DNA of 64,000 nt, taken from Patiriisocius marinus. Lineage in GTDB: Bacteria; Bacteroidota; Bacteroidia; Flavobacteriales; Flavobacteriaceae. The notes under the pieces are model-generated. The model did not search any database. It saw nothing but the letters and a program-made list of their open reading frames with translations, and had not been told where the DNA came from. Location of the stretch: positions 124,001 through 188,000 of the forward strand of contig NZ_BKCG01000003.1 of assembly GCF_008974325.1 (NCBI RefSeq). Reading direction: 5' to 3'. A program made the position numbers and the translations under genes. Below are positions 1-49,062 of this stretch, one piece after another; position 1 is the stretch's first letter; every line of letters starts with the position of its first letter.

Positions 1-79
1 AAGACTTTTTTTAATCAAATAGAGTAAAAATTGATGTTTTAATATTTCCGAAGATATTATTGAAACTCTTTAAAGTACA

Positions 80-1768
80 TTAATAACCTTCCTCATGTAC
101 TCCACCAACAGCGCGACCACTAGGATCATTCATATTTTTAAAACTCTCATCCCAATCTAAAGCTACTTGGCTACTACAGGCAACACTTGGTACAGAAGGT
201 ACTGTTAATGCTGCTGCATCACTAGGAAAATGTTCTTCAAAAATAGTACGATAATAGAATTCCTCTTTACTGGTTGGTGTCTGGATAGGGAAGCGGTATT
301 TTGCATTTGCCATTTGGTCATCGCTAACTTCACTATTCACTAATTCCTTTAAAGTGTCAATCCAGCTATAGCCCACACCATCACTAAATTGTTCTTTTTG
401 TCTCCAAGCAACTTCGTGTGGTAGCATATCGCCAAAAGCTTCACGTAGTACCCATTTTTCCATTGCTTGTTTATCAGTAGGTGCTTTTTGTCCGGCAATA
501 ATCATTTTGTCTTCAGGATTTAATCTCATAGCTACGTCCATAAATTCCTTGTCTAAAAATGGAACACGACCTTCAATTCCCCAGGATGCTAGTGATTTGT
601 TTGCACGTAGACAATCATACATATGTAACTTATCTAGTTTACGAACATTTTCCTCGTGAAAATCTTTTGCTGATGGTGCTTTATGAAAGTATAAATAACC
701 TCCAAAAATTTCATCGGCCCCTTCGCCAGATAATACCATTTTTATTCCCATAGCCTTAATTGCACGGGCAAGTAAAAACATAGGGGTGGAGGCTCTAATA
801 GTGGTAATATCATATGTTTCAACGTGATAAATTACATCACGTAATGCGTCAATTCCTTCTTGAATTGTAAAGTAAACTTCGTGGTGAACAGTTCCTAAAT
901 GATCTGCTACTTTTTTTGCAGCAATTAAATCTGGGGATCCTTCTAGTCCTATTGCAAATGAGTGGAGCTGTGGGTACCAAGCACCTTCAGTATCACCACT
1001 TTCTATACGTTTATCAGCATATTTTTTTGCAACAGCTGAAGTAATACTTGAATCTAAACCTCCTGAAAGTAATACACCATAGGGCACATCACTCATTAAT
1101 TGTCTATGCACAGCAGCATCGAGCGCTTCTCTTAAATCTGAAATACTCGTTTGATTATCCTTTACGTTATCATATTCCATCCAGTCTCTTTTCCACCATC
1201 GTTTTAATTCGCCATCACTACTATGTAAATAATGCCCTGGTGGAAATAGTTCAATTTTAGTACAGAATCCTTCTAATGCTTTTAATTCGCTTGCTACATA
1301 AAAGGTACCGTCTTTATCCCAACCCATATATAATGGGATAATTCCCATATGGTCTCTAGCTATAAGATACTCATTAGTAGCCACATCATATAATGCAAAT
1401 CCAAAAATTCCGTTTAGTTCATCTAGAAAATCAGTTCCTTTTTCTTTATAAAGAGCTAGGATTACTTCGCAATCACTTTTAGTTTGAAAATCGTAAGTAC
1501 CTTCAAATTGTTTACGTAGTTCTAAGTGATTATAGATTTCTCCATTTGCAGCAAGTACAAGTTTTTTGTCTTTACTAAAAAGAGGTTGTTTCCCAGAGGT
1601 TGGGTCTACAATTGCTAAACGCTCGTGAGTTAGTATCGCTCGCTTATTATTGAAAATTCCGCTCCAGTCTGGTCCGCGATGACGTAAACTTTTAGACATT
1701 GTTAATAATTGTGGTCGCAACGTTTCACTAGGTTGCTTTAGATCAAAGGCACATACAATTCCGCACAT
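80..1768 (-). CDS. asnB: asparagine synthetase B (glutamine-hydrolysing)
   Basis: Makes asparagine from aspartate, glutamine and ATP in the cytosol. The protein starts MCGIVC, so after removal of Met1 the N-terminal Cys2 is the class II glutaminase nucleophile. The glutaminase domain spans about residues 2-190. The synthetase domain carries the ATP-pyrophosphatase loop SGGLDSS at 235-241 and a downstream SGEGADEIFGGY motif. Length (562 aa) is normal for AsnB. The start is fixed by the need for Cys2. Upstream on the same strand are an Asn-rich leader peptide and an intrinsic terminator about 57 bases before the start codon, suggesting regulation by asparaginyl-tRNA supply. Confidence 0.97.
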   Translation of the reverse strand: MCGIVCAFDLKQPSETLRPQLLTMSKSLRHRGPDWSGIFNNKRAILTHERLAIVDPTSGKQPLFSKDKKLVLAANGEIYNHLELRKQFEGTYDFQTKSDCEVILALYKEKGTDFLDELNGIFGFALYDVATNEYLIARDHMGIIPLYMGWDKDGTFYVASELKALEGFCTKIELFPPGHYLHSSDGELKRWWKRDWMEYDNVKDNQTSISDLREALDAAVHRQLMSDVPYGVLLSGGLDSSITSAVAKKYADKRIESGDTEGAWYPQLHSFAIGLEGSPDLIAAKKVADHLGTVHHEVYFTIQEGIDALRDVIYHVETYDITTIRASTPMFLLARAIKAMGIKMVLSGEGADEIFGGYLYFHKAPSAKDFHEENVRKLDKLHMYDCLRANKSLASWGIEGRVPFLDKEFMDVAMRLNPEDKMIIAGQKAPTDKQAMEKWVLREAFGDMLPHEVAWRQKEQFSDGVGYSWIDTLKELVNSEVSDDQMANAKYRFPIQTPTSKEEFYYRTIFEEHFPSDAAALTVPSVPSVACSSQVALDWDESFKNMNDPSGRAVGGVHEEGY

Positions 1769-1825
1769 AATTTTATTTTTTAATTGATTAGTTTCAAGTT
1801 TTATTAAGCATTTTCAAAAAAGAGC

Positions 1826-1860
1826 AAAAAAAAACCGCCAAGTCTATAAAAACTTGGCGG
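1826..1860 (-). terminator. asnB attenuator terminator
   Basis: A 9-bp stem (1852-1860 with 1835-1843) closes an 8-base loop and is followed on the minus strand by nine U residues. It lies between the Asn-rich leader peptide and asnB. A competing pairing exists: 1875-1883 (AGAAACTTG on the minus strand, starting one base after the leader stop codon) can pair with CAAGTTTTT at 1848-1856, which includes part of the 5' arm, giving nine pairs with one G-U. A ribosome at the leader stop would cover 1875-1883 and let the terminator form. The hairpin could also end the upstream E1 transcript. Confidence 0.85.
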
Positions 1861-1884
1861 CTGAGTATAAGGTACAAGTTTCTG

Positions 1885-1938
1885 TTACGTCTTGGCGTTA
1901 TTATTATTGAAATTATTATTTATAACAGATGTAAACAT
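1885..1938 (-). CDS. asnB leader peptide (Asn-rich, 17 aa)
   Basis: A short open frame reads MFTSVINNNFNNNNAKT and then TAA. Seven of its 17 codons are asparagine, in two runs (three AAT; then AAT AAT AAT AAC). It sits upstream of asnB on the same strand and is followed by an intrinsic terminator. This is the layout of amino-acid attenuation: stalling at Asn codons when charged tRNA-Asn is low would favour an antiterminator. The frame and composition are seen directly; translation and regulation are inferred. There is no clear Shine-Dalgarno, as usual in this phylum. A TAATTTTA sequence at 1966-1973 (minus strand) is a possible -7 box. Confidence 0.8.
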   Translation of the reverse strand: MFTSVINNNFNNNNAKT

Positions 1939-2001
1939 TTCTTGTGTGTTGTCTTATTTGAAATTTAAAATTAGATAAAAAAAATGAATTAACACTGCAA
2001 T

Positions 2002-4416
2002 TTATCTCAATTTTGGAAATTTACTTGGATTAGCTTCGTGCATTATCTCGTAAACCTTCTCAAACACATCCTCAGTTGATGGCTTACTAAAGTAATCTCC
2101 ATCAGTTCCATAAGCTGGTCTGTGTGCTTTAGCAGCAAGTGTTTGAGGTTTACTGTCTAAATATTTATAACCGTCTTGATTGTCTAGAATTTCAGAAAGA
2201 ATATATGAACTAGCTCCTCCAGGAACATCTTCATCAATTACCAATAGTCGATTTGTTTTCTTCACACTTTCTACCATGTCTTTATTAAGATCTAGTGGTA
2301 ACAGTGATTGAACATCTATGACTTCTGCATCAATACCAACTTGTAATAACTCACGAGCTGCTTCTTCAACAATGCGTAACGTACTTCCGTATGACACTAA
2401 TGTGATATCATTTCCTTCTTTCACAGTTTCAACAACTCCAATAGGTGTTTTAAACTCTCCAAGATTTGTAGGAAGCTTTTCTTTAAGTCGGTAACCATTT
2501 AGACACTCTATAACCAATGCAGGCTCATCAGTATCTAGTAAGGTATTGTAAAAACCAGCGGCTTTTGTCATATTTCTAGGAACAAGAATATACATTCCTC
2601 TTAGTAAATGTATTAAACCGCCCATTTGTGATCCACTGTGCCAAATACCTTCTAGACGGTGTCCACGAGTTCTAACAATAAGGGGGGCTTTTTGCTTCCC
2701 TTTAGTTCTATATTGTACAGTAACAAGATCATCACTCATTATCTGTAAAGCATATAAAATATAATCTAGATATTGAATTTCAGCAATAGGGCGAAGGCCT
2801 CTCATTGACATTCCAATTCCTTGTCCAAGAATAGTAGCTTCGCGAATACCTGTATCACTCACACGCATTTCGCCATATTTTTCTTGCATTCCTTCAAGAC
2901 CTTGATTTACATCACCAATCTCTCCAGCATCCTCTCCAAAAATTAAAACTTCAGGATGTTTACTGAAAATTGCATCAAAATTATCACGTAATACTACACG
3001 TGCATCAACTTCTTCAGCACCATCTTTATAGGTTGGTTGTACTTCTGAAATACTCGGTGCATTATCACTAGCTTCACTATACAAATGACTACTATAATGA
3101 GGTTGAATAGTTTCGAAATAATTGTTTAACCAATCTTGAATTTGTCTTTTTTCGGCTGAAGTTTCACCTACTACATATCGTAATGCTTTTCTTACTGTTG
3201 AAGCAATTAATCGTCGTTCAGGTTCTTTTTCGCCAGCAAGATCATTTTTAAGTTTTTCAATAAAGTTTTTATTAGAAGAACTTTCAGCAAGATTAGTTAG
3301 TAATGTTACTGCTTCATCTTGTTCTCTTTTTTGTGGAGAAGAATAAGCTTCCCAAGCTGCTTTTTTACCTTCTCTAACTTGTTTTTTTATGTCTTTATCA
3401 ATTGCATCAAGTTCATCTTCAGTAGCAAAGTTGTTTTTTAAAATCCATTTTTTAAATTGAACATTACAATCGTATTCTCTTTCCCAAGCTAGACGGTCTT
3501 TACTTTTATATCTCTCGTGAGATCCAGAAGTGGAGTGTCCTTGAGGTTGAGTTAATTCTTTCACGTGTATTAAAACTGGTACATGCTCATCTCTTGCTAT
3601 TGTAGATGCTTTTTGATAAGCTTCTACTAATTGTGGATAATCCCATCCTATAACTCTAATGATTTCATAACCTTTAACGTCATTATCTCTTTGAAATCCT
3701 TTTAAAATTTCAGAAATATTTTCTTTAGTTGTTTGATGTTTTGCATGAACAGAAATTCCATACTCATCATCCCAAACGCTCATTACCATAGGTACTTGTA
3801 ATACACCAGCGGCATTTATCGTTTCCCAAAATAGTCCTTCACTTGTACTAGCGTTTCCAATTGTTCCCCAAGCAACTTCATTTCCGTTAGTAGATAAATT
3901 ACTGAAATTATCTAAACCGTCAACATTTCTAAAAACTTTTGAAGCTTGTGCAAGACCTAAAAGTCTTGGCATTTGGCCAGCAGTAGGAGAAATATCTGCG
4001 CTACTATTTTTTTGTTCTGCAAGATTACGCCAAGACCCATCTTCATTAATTGATTGAGTAGCAAAGTGACCACCCATTTGACGACCACCACTCATAGGGT
4101 CTGAATCCTTAGTAGTATCACCATATAATCCAGCAAAAAATTGCTGAATACTCAACTCGCCAATAGCCATCATAAAAGTCTGATCGCGGTAGTATCCACT
4201 ACGCCAATCTCCATTTTTGAATGCTTTAGCCCAAGCTAGTTGTGGTATTTCTTTACCGTCACCAAAGATTCCAAATTTTGCTTTTCCCGTTAATACTTCT
4301 CGACGGCCTAACAAACTACATTCCCTACTGGTTACAGCAAGTTTATAATCGTTTATGACTTCAGCTTTGAAGTTTTCAAAAGAAATTTCAGTTTCAGATT
4401 TTGGGTCTTTTTGCAT
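2002..4416 (-). CDS. 2-oxoacid dehydrogenase E1 component, fused alpha and beta subunits
   Basis: Thiamine-diphosphate-dependent E1 enzyme of a 2-oxoacid dehydrogenase complex, with the alpha part at about residues 1-400 and the transketolase-like beta part at about 465-804. The beta part shows FGEDAGEIGDVNQG and a C-terminal transketolase domain. The thiamine motif in the alpha half reads GNASTSEG ... WDDEYGIS, whereas the usual pattern is GDG/GEG ... NN. I chose the ATG at 4416 over one at 4473 because a good promoter (TTG-N20-TACTTTTG) ends between them and the extra residues look non-coding. Substrate is uncertain; branched-chain 2-oxoacids are likely. A second fused E1 lies at 59003-61009. 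Confidence 0.9.
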   Translation of the reverse strand: MQKDPKSETEISFENFKAEVINDYKLAVTSRECSLLGRREVLTGKAKFGIFGDGKEIPQLAWAKAFKNGDWRSGYYRDQTFMMAIGELSIQQFFAGLYGDTTKDSDPMSGGRQMGGHFATQSINEDGSWRNLAEQKNSSADISPTAGQMPRLLGLAQASKVFRNVDGLDNFSNLSTNGNEVAWGTIGNASTSEGLFWETINAAGVLQVPMVMSVWDDEYGISVHAKHQTTKENISEILKGFQRDNDVKGYEIIRVIGWDYPQLVEAYQKASTIARDEHVPVLIHVKELTQPQGHSTSGSHERYKSKDRLAWEREYDCNVQFKKWILKNNFATEDELDAIDKDIKKQVREGKKAAWEAYSSPQKREQDEAVTLLTNLAESSSNKNFIEKLKNDLAGEKEPERRLIASTVRKALRYVVGETSAEKRQIQDWLNNYFETIQPHYSSHLYSEASDNAPSISEVQPTYKDGAEEVDARVVLRDNFDAIFSKHPEVLIFGEDAGEIGDVNQGLEGMQEKYGEMRVSDTGIREATILGQGIGMSMRGLRPIAEIQYLDYILYALQIMSDDLVTVQYRTKGKQKAPLIVRTRGHRLEGIWHSGSQMGGLIHLLRGMYILVPRNMTKAAGFYNTLLDTDEPALVIECLNGYRLKEKLPTNLGEFKTPIGVVETVKEGNDITLVSYGSTLRIVEEAARELLQVGIDAEVIDVQSLLPLDLNKDMVESVKKTNRLLVIDEDVPGGASSYILSEILDNQDGYKYLDSKPQTLAAKAHRPAYGTDGDYFSKPSTEDVFEKVYEIMHEANPSKFPKLR

Positions 4417-4442
4417 TGGTTTTTGGGTTATTGTTGTTATTA

Positions 4443-4473
4443 CAAAAGTAGCTAAAATGGTAGTGTGAAACAA
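4443..4473 (-). promoter_or_regulatory. Bacteroidota-type promoter for the E1 gene
   Basis: On the minus strand, TTG (4471-4473), a 20-base spacer and TACTTTTG (4443-4450) match the phylum's TTG / TAnnTTTG sigma factor consensus. Transcription would start near 4436, about 20 bases before the ATG at 4416. This decides the start of the downstream gene. Confidence 0.65.
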
Positions 4474-4509
4474 TACTAAAGATTTGCGACTTTCGTAAAA
4501 TTTTACTAA

Positions 4510-4737
4510 TTATTTTGAATATTCAGTAATTTTAGCGCTCAAATTAACAATAACAATACGAATCAATAATATGAAAGGTGTTCCGTGGAGCACAACATCA
4601 AACCAATCTTTAAGGGTCATTCCTTCGGCACCTCCGACTATCCATTTAATTTTTCCCCAAAGATGTGGTTCTGGAAAAAAAGGGGCTAAACCAAGTGTTA
4701 GGCATAATAGTATGATTAGTTTCCAATTGTTTAACAT
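4510..4737 (-). CDS. small membrane protein of unknown function
   Basis: A 75-residue protein with two hydrophobic segments: residues about 5-21 (KLIILLCLTLGLAPFF) and about 50-67 (TPFILLIRIVIVNL). Between them are a Gly/Trp-containing stretch (WGKIKWIVGGAEG) and a charged linker. I do not recognise a named family, though short two-helix proteins of this kind recur in flavobacterial genomes. It is co-directional with the E1 gene, about 90 bases upstream of it, but that gene has its own promoter. A frame on the other strand at the same place looks like a shadow. Confidence 0.7.
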   Translation of the reverse strand: MLNNWKLIILLCLTLGLAPFFPEPHLWGKIKWIVGGAEGMTLKDWFDVVLHGTPFILLIRIVIVNLSAKITEYSK

Positions 4738-4897
4738 TTCGGTATTATTAAATATTATCTATCAAAAATATGCTTATTGATTTAATTTTTAGAATAATGA
4801 ATCGATAAGATAGTAAGTAACGTATGTATTTGTAGACTTACTTTATCTGTTTATTTGTTATTTAATCGAAAGTGTATTCCTAAGTGTTTGATATTTA

Positions 4898-4927
4898 TTG
4901 ACTTGAGATGTTGATTTGTTATTTTTG
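4898..4927 (+). promoter_or_regulatory. promoter for the 15-residue-repeat surface protein
   Basis: TTG (4898-4900), a 19-base spacer and TATTTTTG (4920-4927) match the Bacteroidota consensus. The expected transcription start is near 4934, giving a leader of about 19 bases. Confidence 0.65.
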
Positions 4928-4952
4928 CATGGTATTTGTATAAGAGTTTATT

Positions 4953-6947
4953 ATGAAAAAAATTATAAGTATTTGTTTAGTGTTAATTACTTATGTGAGT
5001 TTTGCGCAAGTTGGTATTGGTACTACTTCTCCAAGAGCTTCTTTAGAAATTTCTAATAGTGGTCAAGGCGGTGTTTTAATACCTCAATTTACTTTAACAG
5101 GAAACAATGACACTACAACTGTAGTAAATCCACAATCAGGTCCACTTGTTACAGGAACCTTAGTTTATAACACTACTGCAACAACAGGATTAAATGCCCT
5201 AGATCAAGGTTTTGTTTATTGGGATAACACTTTGGGAATTTGGGTAAATATTAATACTGATACTCAAGATCATGATTGGTATAAAGGTACTACTAACAAC
5301 TTAGCTTTAGATATAACAGATGATATTTACACAGAAGGAAAAGTTGGTATTGGTAAAAATCCACCAAGTTATACATTAGATGTATTGTCTGAAGAAGGTT
5401 TAAGAGGAATAAATTTAGATCTTGGCGGATCTCAGGATGGAACTCTAACAGGAATGTGGAGTACATTTACAAACACAGGTGTTGGTTCTCACACTGCATA
5501 TAAAACATCTATGAATGGTACTGGTAATGGAGCTCAAAATGGTTTTGTAGCTAATATAGTTGCAGCTAGTGCATCTGTTCAAGTAGGAACAAATAACTCT
5601 CTAAGTAATTCTGGTACAGGATCACAATATGGAACTAGAAATACTATTTCTGGAATTGGAAGCGGACAGCGTCGTGCAGTTTATAATATTGTTCAAGGTA
5701 GTAGTACTGCTAATCAATATGGTACTTGGAATACTGTAAATGTTGTTGGTGATAACTCTCATTTTGGAACATTCAACCAAATGGCAAATATTGGAAATGG
5801 TATTCATTACGGTACTTATAATTCCATGTCTGGTACAGGAACTGGTAAACAATATGGAGTTTATAATATACATGGAGGAGCAGGTACTGGCGAGAGAATA
5901 GGTATTTACAATATTGATGTAAACTCTGGCTCTGGAAGACATTATGGTGTTTTGACAGATTTGAGAGGTGATGGAACTGGAGAGATGATTGGTACTAGAA
6001 ATAACATAAGGAATACAGGTAACAGTACTCATTATGGAGTTCGAAATGAATTACAAGGTGAAGGAACAGGTACTCATTATGGTACTTTTAATTTACTTTC
6101 CGGAGATGGAACTGGATCTCAAAGAGGAATAAATAATACTATAACTAACACTGGAGATAACACTCACTATGGAGTAAATAATACTGTTTCTGGGATTGGT
6201 TCAGGCTCACATTTTGGTGTTAATAATGTAGTAAATGGTCCTGGTACAGGGTCACATTATGGAACTAATAATCAAATAAGTAGTACTGGTAATGGTACAA
6301 AAATAGGAACCAATAATAATATTAATAATTCTGGTAATGGTAATCATTTTGGTTCTAAAAACTCTTTAGGGGGATCTGGTACAGGAAATAAATATGGAAG
6401 TCATAATGTTATTGACGCAAGTGTTGGTGGTACACATTATGGTATTTATTCTAAAGTAGAAAAAGTCGGGTCTTGGGCAGGATATTTTATTGGTAATACA
6501 AGGATTAGTGGAAATTTAGAAACTACAGGACAAATATCTGCAAATAATTATGTTTCCAATTCAGGTTCTTCTGGGTATGCCGATTATGTGTTTGAAAAAT
6601 ATTATGATGGTTTTTCAAAAATAAATAAGGATTATACTTTTCTAAGTATTGAAGATGCAGAAGCATTTGTGAAAGATAATGGTCATTTACCTGGTGTGAC
6701 ATCATATAAAGAAGTAAAATCTAATAATTATAATTTTAGTTTAAGTGATCTTTCTCTTTCTAGTTTAGAAAAGATTGAAGAGCAGTTTTTATATATAGTT
6801 GAACTTAAAAATAATATTAAAACTCAAAATGATAAAGTGAATTCTCAAGAAAAAGAATTAATTTCATTATCAATGAGAGTAGAAAAACAAGAAGAAGAAT
6901 TACAAAAGTTAAAACAAATGATGCTTGATCTAAAACAAGAAAACTAA
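4953..6947 (+). CDS. secreted surface protein with 22 tandem 15-residue repeats
   Basis: A 664-residue exported protein. A signal peptide (about residues 1-18, ending VSFAQ) leads into an AQVGIGTTSPRASLEI segment common at the N-terminus of flavobacterial surface proteins. Residues 176-505 are 22 units of exactly 15 residues with a rough consensus GxGxHYGxxNxxxxx. After these come an ADYVFEKYYDGFSK segment and an END-type module resembling tail-fibre or adhesin C-termini in this family, closing in a coiled coil (about 615-664). The regular glycine and aromatic spacing suggests a beta-solenoid or beta-roll shaft, possibly trimerised by the coiled coil; this is inference. No T9SS sorting domain is visible. 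Confidence 0.8.
   Translation: MKKIISICLVLITYVSFAQVGIGTTSPRASLEISNSGQGGVLIPQFTLTGNNDTTTVVNPQSGPLVTGTLVYNTTATTGLNALDQGFVYWDNTLGIWVNINTDTQDHDWYKGTTNNLALDITDDIYTEGKVGIGKNPPSYTLDVLSEEGLRGINLDLGGSQDGTLTGMWSTFTNTGVGSHTAYKTSMNGTGNGAQNGFVANIVAASASVQVGTNNSLSNSGTGSQYGTRNTISGIGSGQRRAVYNIVQGSSTANQYGTWNTVNVVGDNSHFGTFNQMANIGNGIHYGTYNSMSGTGTGKQYGVYNIHGGAGTGERIGIYNIDVNSGSGRHYGVLTDLRGDGTGEMIGTRNNIRNTGNSTHYGVRNELQGEGTGTHYGTFNLLSGDGTGSQRGINNTITNTGDNTHYGVNNTVSGIGSGSHFGVNNVVNGPGTGSHYGTNNQISSTGNGTKIGTNNNINNSGNGNHFGSKNSLGGSGTGNKYGSHNVIDASVGGTHYGIYSKVEKVGSWAGYFIGNTRISGNLETTGQISANNYVSNSGSSGYADYVFEKYYDGFSKINKDYTFLSIEDAEAFVKDNGHLPGVTSYKEVKSNNYNFSLSDLSLSSLEKIEEQFLYIVELKNNIKTQNDKVNSQEKELISLSMRVEKQEEELQKLKQMMLDLKQEN
5478..6467 (+). 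repeat. coding tandem repeat, 22 units of 45 bp
   Basis: The repeats encode residues 176-505 of the surface protein. The unit length of 15 residues holds across all 22 copies without insertion or deletion. Conserved positions are Gly 1, Gly 3, an aromatic-Gly pair at 6-7 (often HYG or HFG) and Asn 10. The DNA copies are diverged, so the array looks old rather than recently expanded. Confidence 0.85.
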
Positions 6948-6973
6948 TTAATCATTGAGGGTAGTTCTGAAAT

Positions 6974-7010
6974 AAAAAAAGGCTCTAATAAATTTTAGAG
7001 CCTTTTTTTT
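6974..7010. terminator. bidirectional terminator
   Basis: GGCTCTAA (6981-6988) pairs with TTAGAGCC (6995-7002). An A-run precedes and a T-run follows, so it can end both the plus-strand surface-protein gene and the convergent PLP-enzyme gene. Confidence 0.85.
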
Positions 7011-7015
7011 TAATG

Positions 7016-8224
7016 TTATACAACTCCAACTTGAACCATACAATCACGCATCATTGCGTATGTACGTTCTATATCTGCATCAAGTCCAATTGAAAAACGT
7101 ATTAACCCATCGCTTAATCCCATTTCTTTTTGTTCGTCTTCAGGTATTTCTGAAGATGTAGAACTTCCAGGAGCACTAAATAATGTTTTGTAGAAACCTA
7201 AACTCACGGCTAAATATCCTAAATTCTTTTCTTGCATTAATTCCATTAAGGCATTTGCCTTCTCTAAAGAACCTGCATCTATAGTTAGCATTCCACCATA
7301 ACCATATTTATCATTCATCATTGAATTATAAAGCTCATGTCCTGGGTGAGATTTTAAACCTGGATACACAGTGCGCAATCCATCTTTTTCAAATTTTTCA
7401 GCTAAGTATAGTGCATTATGACTGTGTTGTTGCATTCTAATATGTAGAGTTCTTAAGTTTTTAAGAATACTTGCAGCTCGTAAACTATCCATTGAAGCTC
7501 CAAGTAGCATACAAGCACCATCATTAACATTACGAAGTGTATCAATTAATTCTTGGCTCCCACAAACAACACCACCCATAGTATCACTTGCACCATTAAT
7601 AAACTTAGTTAAACTGTGCATTACAACATCTGCTCCTAATTTAGCTGGTGAAATAGTTAAAGGAGAAAAGGTATTATCAACTAATAATTGTAAGCCGTGT
7701 TTTTTAGCAATTTTAGCTAGCCCTGCTATATCAGCTATTTCTAATAATGGGTTAGAAACACATTCACAAAATATAATTTTAGTTTTAGGAGTGATGGCAG
7801 CTTCAACAGCTTCAAGTTTTGTGATATCAACAAATGACGTTTGAATATTTAATCTAGGAGTAAAATTTTTAAGAAAAGCATATGTACCACCATAGATTGT
7901 TCTACTAGAAACAACGTGATCACCAGCTTCACAAAACTGTAAAATAGTAGGAGTGATTGCACCCATACCACTTGCAGCAACATTTGCAGTTTCAGTTCCT
8001 TCCATTGCAGCTAGTGCTTCGCCTAAATAAAGGTTAGAAGGAGTAGAGTGACGAGAATATAAGTAACATCCATCTGCATTACCTTCAAAGGTATCAAACA
8101 TAGTTTTTGCAGAAAGAAATGTGTATGTTGATGAATCAGAAATAGAAGGGTTAACACCTCCAAACTCTCCAAAATATTGAAGATCCTGAATATTATTTGC
8201 TGGTTTAAATTTTGTATCTTTCAT
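7016..8224 (-). CDS. Cys/Met-metabolism PLP enzyme, methionine gamma-lyase-like
   Basis: A 402-residue fold-type I PLP enzyme of the cystathionine gamma-synthase/lyase family. Visible family motifs include YSRHSTPSNLYL, SSRTIYGGTYAFL, LLVDNTFSPL and the PLP-lysine segment HSLTKFINGASDTMGG. It would cleave or form a sulfur-amino-acid side chain; methionine gamma-lyase or an O-acetylhomoserine sulfhydrylase are the main alternatives. It is divergent from an Lrp/AsnC regulator, an arrangement often seen for amino-acid catabolic lyases, which favours the lyase. A possible -7 box, TAGTTTTG, lies at 8272-8279 on the minus strand. Confidence 0.85.
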   Translation of the reverse strand: MKDTKFKPANNIQDLQYFGEFGGVNPSISDSSTYTFLSAKTMFDTFEGNADGCYLYSRHSTPSNLYLGEALAAMEGTETANVAASGMGAITPTILQFCEAGDHVVSSRTIYGGTYAFLKNFTPRLNIQTSFVDITKLEAVEAAITPKTKIIFCECVSNPLLEIADIAGLAKIAKKHGLQLLVDNTFSPLTISPAKLGADVVMHSLTKFINGASDTMGGVVCGSQELIDTLRNVNDGACMLLGASMDSLRAASILKNLRTLHIRMQQHSHNALYLAEKFEKDGLRTVYPGLKSHPGHELYNSMMNDKYGYGGMLTIDAGSLEKANALMELMQEKNLGYLAVSLGFYKTLFSAPGSSTSSEIPEDEQKEMGLSDGLIRFSIGLDADIERTYAMMRDCMVQVGVV

Positions 8225-8407
8225 AATAATTAAGGTAGTTTAGTGAAATTTTGTTAGTTTATATTATACACCAAAACTAAACAACCTTAGAAGATAAGTC
8301 ACTACATTAAAGTTATTATAGTTAATTAAACTAATTTAAGGGAAAATGCCTGTAAATTAATAAGCTCAATAAATTATAATACTGTAGTTTTATGAAAAAT
8401 TTTCTAA

Positions 8408-8866
8408 ATGAAATTGGATTCTATCGATAAAGGATTATTGCGTTACCTACAAGAAGATGCAAAACAGACCAATAAAGAGCTTTCAGCAAAATTAAACTTG
8501 TCTGTTACAGCAGTTTATGAACGTATTAAAAAATTAGAACGATCTGGACTTATAAAACAATATGTTGCTATTCTAGACAAAAAGCAATTGTCGCTTGGTT
8601 TTATGGTTTTTTGCCACGTAAAACTAGCCCAACATACAGAAGCAAATATTACAGACTTTGAAGCTGAAGTTTCAAAACTTCCAGAGGTTTTGGAATGTTT
8701 TCATGTTAGTGGAGAATATGATTATTTGTTAAAAGTTGTGGTGGAAGATATGGATGCTTTTAGAACCTTTATGATTAACAAACTAACATCTTTAAATCAT
8801 ATAGGGAGTACACAGAGTTCATTTAATATTAGTGAAGTTAAAAATAGTACAGCAATAAGTATATGA
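8408..8866 (+). CDS. Lrp/AsnC family transcriptional regulator
   Basis: A 152-residue regulator with an N-terminal winged helix-turn-helix (about residues 1-60; starts LDSIDKGLLRYLQEDAKQTN) and a C-terminal ligand-binding RAM domain (about 65-145; VLECFHVSGEYDYLLKVVV). Length is typical for the family. It is divergent from the methionine gamma-lyase-like gene, which is its most likely target. Its stop codon overlaps the start of the next gene in an ATGA, so the two are probably translated together. Confidence 0.93.
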   Translation: MKLDSIDKGLLRYLQEDAKQTNKELSAKLNLSVTAVYERIKKLERSGLIKQYVAILDKKQLSLGFMVFCHVKLAQHTEANITDFEAEVSKLPEVLECFHVSGEYDYLLKVVVEDMDAFRTFMINKLTSLNHIGSTQSSFNISEVKNSTAISI

Positions 8867-9513
8867 TAAAAAGTCGTGCGTTTTTAATTGGAGAGTTTTT
8901 ATTGTTGTTTATTTTATTACCATTAAGCCTTACTGCACCTATGGCAATTTGGATAAAAGTTGCATTAGTGCTTTTAGGTTTTGGATATCTATTAATGGTA
9001 CTTCGGAAATTTGAAAATTTAAAATTTCGGATTCATAAAAATTTAAATCGGGCATCTTTTTTTAAACGAATAGCAATTACTTTTACGACAATAATCATTT
9101 TAACGATATTATTCGTAAGGTATAAAGACCCATCTGCGTTATTTTATGTGCCTTTGAATAATCCTTTACTATTTGTAACAATCCTTTTGTTTTATAGTTT
9201 ACTTTCAGTGTGGCCACAGGAGATAATATATAGAACATTTTTCTTTGAACGCTATGTTTCACTTTTTCAGTCAAAATTTACTTTAGTGGTAGTTAATGCA
9301 GTGGTATTTTCACTTGCACATCTTTTCTTCAAAAATATTCTAGTGATTATTTTAACTCTTATCGGAGGTATTTTATTTGGGTTAACTTATATAAAATACA
9401 AGAGTACCACACTGGTTTCTATAGAACACGCACTTTATGGAAATTGGCTATTTACAGTAGGAATGGGGGAGATGTTAGCATTTCCAGGGATGGAGAATAG
9501 TACTACGATGTAA
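8863..9513 (+). CDS. CPBP-family intramembrane protease-like protein
   Basis: A 216-residue polytopic membrane protein with several hydrophobic segments. It contains motifs resembling the CPBP (Abi/Rce1-like) active site: QEIIYRTFFFER near residue 123, FSLAHLFF near 146, and a final SIEHALYGNWLF. The usual first motif is EExxxR; here the first Glu is Gln, so catalytic competence is uncertain. It overlaps the Lrp gene by four bases, implying co-expression. Substrate unknown. Confidence 0.8.
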   Translation: MIKSRAFLIGEFLLLFILLPLSLTAPMAIWIKVALVLLGFGYLLMVLRKFENLKFRIHKNLNRASFFKRIAITFTTIIILTILFVRYKDPSALFYVPLNNPLLFVTILLFYSLLSVWPQEIIYRTFFFERYVSLFQSKFTLVVVNAVVFSLAHLFFKNILVIILTLIGGILFGLTYIKYKSTTLVSIEHALYGNWLFTVGMGEMLAFPGMENSTTM

Positions 9514-48483: not shown

Positions 48484-48527
48484 AAACGCAAAGCCTTTTA
48501 CCCGAAAGCCAACTGTTTTAAATTAAA

Positions 48528-48745
48528 ATGACATTGGCAGGTCTCCTGGCTTGCGTATTGTAATTGTCCTTCCCATCGAAAATATTGGACAGTGGAATTT
48601 GAAGTTTTTAATTACAATCGTTCCTAAATAGTGGAACTAAGCTTACAGTTGCGGGAACAGCTCAAGATTATTAGATAGTTTATCTATCATTTTACTTGAT
48701 TCCCTTTTAATTGTTTCCATATAAAAAACGGAAACAAACCAAATA
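48528..48745 (-). promoter_or_regulatory. cobalamin riboswitch
   Basis: Read on the minus strand, the region contains in order AAAAGGGAATC (about 48699-48709), CCCGCAACTGTAAGC (48641-48655), CCACTG (48590-48595), GGGAAGG (48568-48574) and the B12 box GCCAGGAGACCTGCC (48536-48550), the full set of adenosylcobalamin riboswitch core motifs. The 3' part (GCCAATGT) can also pair with ACAGTTGGC downstream, a possible expression platform before the btuB start 44 bases away. High cobalamin should repress the operon. Confidence 0.95.
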
Positions 48746-48955
48746 CTTCGCGAAAGTAATCAAATGCTCTTCTATAATCCAATAAAAACAACTTTTACAT
48801 CTGTAAAGATTTATTTATTGAATAGAGCGTAGATAATTTTAAATTTAAAATTTAATAATTTGAAGTAGAAATACAAGGAGGTAATTTAGTTATTTAGTGG
48901 GTCCAAAAAGCCTCATTGTTAGAAGAATGCCTATAAGAAAGATAACTTTATTCCA
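48746..48955. other. intergenic spacer between riboswitch and tRNA
   Basis: No gene seen. The promoter for the riboswitch transcript should lie here on the minus strand, but I find no clean TAnnTTTG match. Confidence 0.4.
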
Positions 48956-48988: not shown

Positions 48989-49062
48989 TAGCGAGAACGA
49001 GACTTGAACTCGTGACCTCCGGGTTATGAATCCGACGCTCTAACCACCTGAGCTACCTCGCC
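48989..49062 (-). tRNA. tRNA-Met (CAT)
   Basis: A 74-base cloverleaf on the minus strand: acceptor GGCGAGG, D arm GCTC...GAGC, anticodon loop TTCATAA with anticodon CAT, T arm with GTTCAAGTC, discriminator A. No CCA is encoded. The acceptor begins with a G-U pair, not the C-A mismatch of initiators, so elongator Met is favoured; a lysidine-modified tRNA-Ile cannot be wholly excluded. Confidence 0.93.

Follow-up and report, generated by a model that had tools for sequence, protein, structure and literature searches.

The window, by which we mean the whole 64,000-nucleotide stretch of Patiriisocius marinus DNA analysed here, carries asnB on its minus strand at 80-1768, with the start at 1768. 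The product, a glutamine-hydrolysing asparagine synthetase B of 562 amino acids, scored 913.5 bits against the equivalog NF006949 (asparagine synthase B; cut-off 499). An intergenic region of 233 nt lies between asnB and the upstream dehydrogenase gene (2002-4473), and all of the features described below are read from its minus strand. In the direction of transcription, they begin with a candidate flavobacterial -7 box, TAATTTTA, at 1966-1973, which is a relaxed match only to TAnnTTTG and thus a putative element. Directly 5′ of the leader start codon lies segment 1 (1941-1945), a putative protector strand of sequence ACAAG, whose partner is CTTGT at 1878-1874. The leader ORF itself occupies 1885-1938 and has 17 codons (MFTSVINNNFNNNNAKT, then a stop codon); it is one of 57 distinct Asn-rich leaders that we collected. 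Seven of its codons, at 1897-1920, specify Asn (six AAT and one AAC, with a single Phe codon between them), and the last of these stands three codons ahead of the stop. Downstream of the ORF are segment 2, the antiterminator strand (AGAAACTTG, 1875-1883), and its partner segment 3 (CAAGTTTTT, 1848-1856), which forms the inner 5′ arm and the loop of the terminator; of the nine positions paired between them, one is a G-U. The intrinsic terminator, in which segment 3 pairs with segment 4, is a hairpin of 13 pairs with a loop of 4 at 1833-1862, and its T9 tract (1826-1834) ends 57 nt before asnB. A sequence-only reading of this DNA had already recognised the frame with its seven Asn codons, the pairing of 1883-1875 with 1856-1848 and the terminator with its T tract, all at the right coordinates, and had missed segment 1 together with its pairing to segment 2 (1:2).

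When the 126-nt leader was folded without constraint (fold z = -3.96), the structure combined the ACAAG:CTTGT helix with the terminator. The terminator of the window reaches -20.1 kcal/mol, and its 2:3 hairpin, at -5.2 kcal/mol, marks the weak limit among the 57 elements (mean -8.7). A search of Rfam 15 over the leader returned no family at the gathering threshold, the T-box included; there were only weak matches below it, the best scoring 23.5 bits against 120.3. Elsewhere in the window, a cobalamin riboswitch (81.2 bits) was found at 48519-48758 on the minus strand, with a tRNA nearby at 48989-49062.

Occurrence of the element in relatives

When we scanned named genomes, taking the 80 top-ranking asnB loci from a longer list, 76 of which were usable in having at least 200 nt of upstream sequence, we found the element in 30 of the 76. 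Its carriers include Aequorivita, Patiriisocius, Cochleicola, Altibacter and Marixanthomonas as well as Pukyongia, Thermobacterium, Luteirhabdus, Gilvibacter and Planktosalinus. An asnB-like match was present in 250 of 299 genomes of the family; the element occurred in 29 of the 30 that matched best, and in one of 60 more taken from the asnB match list, a sample that excludes G118 and G263, two lower-listed genomes already known as carriers. After identical sequence copies had been merged, 95 loci from all sources yielded the 57 distinct elements; L202, which passed the leader filter but carried neither segment 2 nor the terminator, was removed before these were counted, and four loci (L035, L061, L066 and L074) had no usable upstream sequence.

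A lack of Asn leaders in relatives, with the terminator alone conserved, had been named beforehand as the finding that would speak against attenuation, and the comparison showed the opposite. Indeed, when the parsed asnB upstream regions were scanned for an ATG-initiated ORF ending shortly before a terminator, with no requirement for Asn and with the ORF richest in Asn shown where several qualified, each of the 53 distinct cases had at least three Asn codons. Where the element is absent, the short ORF richest in Asn contained 0-4 Asn in 95 of 98 asnB upstream regions and 5-6 in the other three. Ten loci with an unrecognised start motif (L026, L036, L056, L060, L062, L063, L066, L068, L069 and L074) were left out of the 53-case scan and of the tree described below; those of them with upstream DNA were inspected, and the element was absent. 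By eye, we also observed in asnB upstream regions without the element (L047, L054 and L063, for example) a recurring GTAANTATAA ... ATATTTGC arrangement at most about 100 nt from the start codon, which suggests a short 5′ UTR, perhaps with a regulator site in place of an attenuator.

Of the 74 rows of an asnB protein tree, 34 carry the element. One supported clade (100/99) has it throughout, in each of its 32 rows, and a second has it in two, L147 and L157; it is absent from the other sampled genera. Three label changes account for this distribution, one of them resting on L061, which was coded as lacking the element solely since its contig holds no upstream sequence. L147 and L157 have an Asn leader, a different terminator (CCGCCGGG) and altered 1:2 pairs, and because the core of segment 2 is kept though the terminator differs, the element of the second clade is probably homologous rather than convergent. 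The asnB of L035, whose contig is labelled Chitinophagaceae, groups with those of Gelidibacter and Aquaticitalea (Flavobacteriaceae), possibly as the result of a binning error.

A covariance model of the element, R1, is unspecific when used alone, since 245 of 397 family genomes match it at E <= 0.01. The element was present in all of its top 30 matches, and among 20 regions fetched with it, an Asn leader and asnB were found in four (L147, L148, L149 and L157); the other 16, which include L146 at 48.0 bits, lack any leader carrying an Asn run. Across the order, in 395 genomes that include members of the family, R1 gave four matches at E <= 1e-6, namely our own genome, one of the same genus, G044 (L153) and L226. 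The G044 match is a plain terminator, and L226, from another family, has MWEQKH as its sole listed ATG ORF and was not counted. Outside the family, this order-wide search, with its strict filters and many genomes of the same family among the 395, thus returned nothing credible. A DNA pattern for segments 2-3 with three mismatches allowed did not recover the element in our own genome, and the number of its matches was equal to that of a reversed control.

Asn codons, spacing and alternative pairings

Across the 57 distinct leaders, Asn accounts for 379 of the 805 residues that follow the start codon, and it is the commonest residue, or tied for commonest, in every one. The number of Asn codons ranges from 3 to 10 per leader, with only three in L017, L037 and L111, and the two codons (AAT 274, AAC 105) are exchanged at the same positions. 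The gene downstream of these leaders is asnB, so that the enrichment in product codons that marks a leader-peptide attenuator was found here for asparagine. The Asn run ends three codons ahead of the stop in 49 of the 57, and six nt separate the stop from the [CT]TTG of segment 2 in 52. A ribosome covers about 15 nt beyond the first base of its P-site codon and, because of this footprint and the observed spacing, a ribosome standing at the last Asn codon would just spare segment 2, while one at the stop would cover it.

Asn runs, the competing pairing and the terminator, whose covariation the sequence-only reading had proposed as a check, recur together in the elements compared; the pairings 2:3 and 3:4 covary, as does 1:2. 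In the terminator, two-sided changes occur at six of 11 pairs (29 distinct rows). For 2:3, 95.0% of cells are paired, with two-sided changes at three of 11 pairs, and pairing falls to 31-65% when the partner is slid along; the count of further 2:3 pair types was not above that of shuffles (210 of 500). The outer 2:3 pair, which is A:T in 33 elements, G:C in 13, G:T in six and C/A in one (four were unparsed), is free of the terminator constraint because it is located in the terminator loop; L003 is a locus in which this pair is broken.

We also compared pairing energies between native and exchanged partners. For 2:3, the native combination gave -10.77 against -10.06 for swapped partners, a value as low being reached in none of 10,000 permutations, and 1:2 gave -5.93 against -5.51 (2 of 10,000); such permutations reduce the effect of relatedness, part of which is still present. 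With 43 representatives, the corresponding numbers were 0 of 10,000 for 2:3 and 6 of 10,000 for 1:2. Of the seven decoy pairings, that of segment 1 with a reversed segment 2 came closest to significance, at 770 of 10,000 on all loci and 521 of 10,000 on the representatives. Matched but altered 1:2 pairs occur in L077, L095, L102, L147 and L157, and in L037 and L148 this pairing is almost absent.

When the 57 elements were folded with an assumed ribosome footprint of -14 to +15 around the P site held unpaired, the outcome before synthesis of segment 4 depended on where the ribosome stood: 2:3 formed in 51 of 57 with the ribosome placed on the final Asn codon of the run, compared with 2 of 57 with the ribosome at the stop, which supports the attenuation geometry originally proposed. 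With no ribosome, 2:3 was the outcome for 32 of the 57, and only 20 elements folded into 1:2. Once segment 4 was complete, 3:4 was formed in all 57 elements in every ribosome state, and because the complete terminator is the preferred fold throughout, the switch must be kinetic. A ribosome stalled on Asn leaves segment 1 uncovered, so that 1:2 could form again around the ribosome, as it did in 44 of 57 folds with segment 4 present.

Mechanism and competing explanations

We regard it as highly probable that the element works by classical ribosome-mediated transcription attenuation, with asparagine as the amino acid sensed. From its parts, their conservation and spacing, the covariation and the folding preferences, we infer leader translation, ribosome stalling, read-through and a response to asparagine. 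Transcription would start about 20-30 nt ahead of the leader ORF, and a ribosome would trail RNA polymerase along the leader. With Asn-tRNA charged, the ribosome would reach the stop and cover segment 2, the terminator 3:4 would form and asnB would be off. With charged Asn-tRNA scarce, it would halt at the Asn codons with segment 2 left exposed by the three-codon spacer, and 2:3 would form before segment 4 is synthesised, allowing read-through into asnB. If no ribosome is loaded, 1:2 can pair and termination would be the default. The asnB enzyme would thus probably be made mainly when asparagine is short. The same specificity might also operate through a variant layout in which 1:2 sets ribosome loading and thereby asnB expression, a possibility that we take seriously though we rather doubt it; the 1:2 helix, which would enclose the whole leader ORF, would then block initiation and free the terminator, and the loading of the first ribosome, besides its stalling, would set asnB expression.

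An explanation without attenuation would make the hairpin the terminator of the dehydrogenase gene and the Asn ORF an accident of A/T-rich DNA, with the asnB promoter lying downstream. The region is A/T-rich, and dinucleotide shuffling of the 233-nt intergenic sequence produced a short ORF with seven or more Asn in 10 of 5000 cases, so that the Asn count of the window is by itself moderately unlikely; the comparative evidence is far stronger, as the ORF is kept in 57 distinct relatives and the spacing and pairings in most of them. A promoter-like site of the E. coli type does lie at 1797-1770, though sites of this kind are no commoner in 1-9000 of the window (39) than in shuffles (40.4), and the gap between terminator and asnB, which shrinks to 18 nt in the shortest case, is hardly promoter-sized. 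The flavobacterial -7 consensus TAnnTTTG is given in the available text of PMC9723704. Relaxed matches to it, with a pattern picked after the sequences had been seen, occur upstream of the leader in 37 of 57 windows against 13.2 in shuffled sequence (maximum 23), mostly 31-39 nt ahead of the leader start, and are not enriched in the gap between terminator and asnB (8 of 57 against 7.1). The strict consensus is not enriched (2 against 2.1 shuffled), and since the relaxed pattern is also post hoc, the -7 boxes give moderate evidence for a putative promoter upstream of the leader. We consider the accidental origin of the ORF very improbable.

Two further explanations keep the terminator under control and assign the Asn ORF another role. 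A protein or small molecule might bind the segment 2 region, the ORF being secondary or serving to hold a ribosome, as might be suggested by the consensus of segment 2 (CAAAAACTTGTCGCGATAT), which is better conserved than the peptide. That conservation is accounted for by the two pairing partners of segment 2, however, and a bound ligand sits poorly with the lack of an Rfam match at the gathering threshold over the leader, with Asn being the top or tied residue throughout, with the exchange of AAT and AAC and with the near-fixed distance to the stop; this explanation seems to us as improbable as the accidental one. Least probable of all is an arrest peptide, in which an Asn-rich nascent chain rather than a shortage of Asn-tRNA would halt the ribosome. 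The Asn-rich stretch does lie close to the C terminus of the leader, but the Asn number varies between leaders, the runs are interrupted (NNNFNNNN, NTNNNN), the N-termini differ, and asnB makes exactly the amino acid that is repeated.

Relation to known leaders and significance

The leaders of the enteric trp, his, ilv, leu, thr and phe operons are the classical amino-acid attenuators. The asnB leader has in common with them a short ORF rich in product codons, the alternative pairings 2:3 and 3:4 with a putative 1:2, and a terminator before the first structural gene. It differs from them in sensing, as we read it, Asn and in having asnB as its target, and its putative protector strand lies directly 5′ of the start codon, whereas that of trp lies within the regulatory codons. 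In Firmicutes, asn genes are under T-box control, in which the tRNA is bound directly and no leader peptide is involved. A T-box resembles the asnB leader, as interpreted here, in sensing uncharged tRNA before a biosynthesis gene of that amino acid; unlike a T-box, the asnB leader has a leader peptide, and it gave no T-box match.

Within the same phylum as the asnB leader, the accessible text on Flavobacterium psychrophilum describes strong clues that leader peptides attenuate amino-acid biosynthesis operons, and lists pheA and hisG among the genes preceded by conserved structured 5′ elements (PMC9723704), and that on Bacteroides thetaiotaomicron describes sORFs reminiscent of attenuating leader peptides (PMC7366714); the main texts of these two papers contain no match to 'Asn'. 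The attenuators described in actinobacteria for the Trp, Leu, Ile/Val and Cys pathways (PMC1262725) and for Corynebacterium ilvB-II (PMC10272879) likewise have candidate leaders rich in the amino acid of the pathway, several with a terminator and an antiterminator; they belong to another phylum and concern other amino acids, and neither 'asparagine' nor 'asn' occurs in the main texts of the two. We found no asparagine attenuator in print within the literature covered, which is partial and has most subscription papers outside it. The mechanism is classical, and its asparagine specificity apparently unreported.

Other leaders of similar design occur in the same genome. Upstream of hisG we found a His-rich leader, MNNNQVHHHHLINHAPARK, with a terminator (L227:1278-1394), a candidate for a second attenuator. 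Two tandem Ile-rich ORFs, MKKYSIIASIIEIVIISHES and MTNLLINIIIIISIIILPHKVRE, each with its own terminator (L228, 228-542, reverse strand), lie before an apparent aminotransferase gene (judged by eye) that precedes ilvD, and these ORFs are possible tandem attenuators. No terminator was found upstream of asnS in this genome. Because the His and Ile leaders are similarly built and are followed by terminators, leader-peptide attenuation appears to serve several amino acids in this organism.

Asparagine would be a further amino acid apparently sensed through leader-peptide attenuation, and the Bacteroidota would gain a well-supported family of leader-peptide switches, the earlier reports from the phylum being brief in the text available. 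The R1 covariance model may be used for annotating genomes, provided that the leader and asnB are checked for each match. Since the element is limited to certain clades, the gain or replacement of amino-acid control should be traceable in this family.
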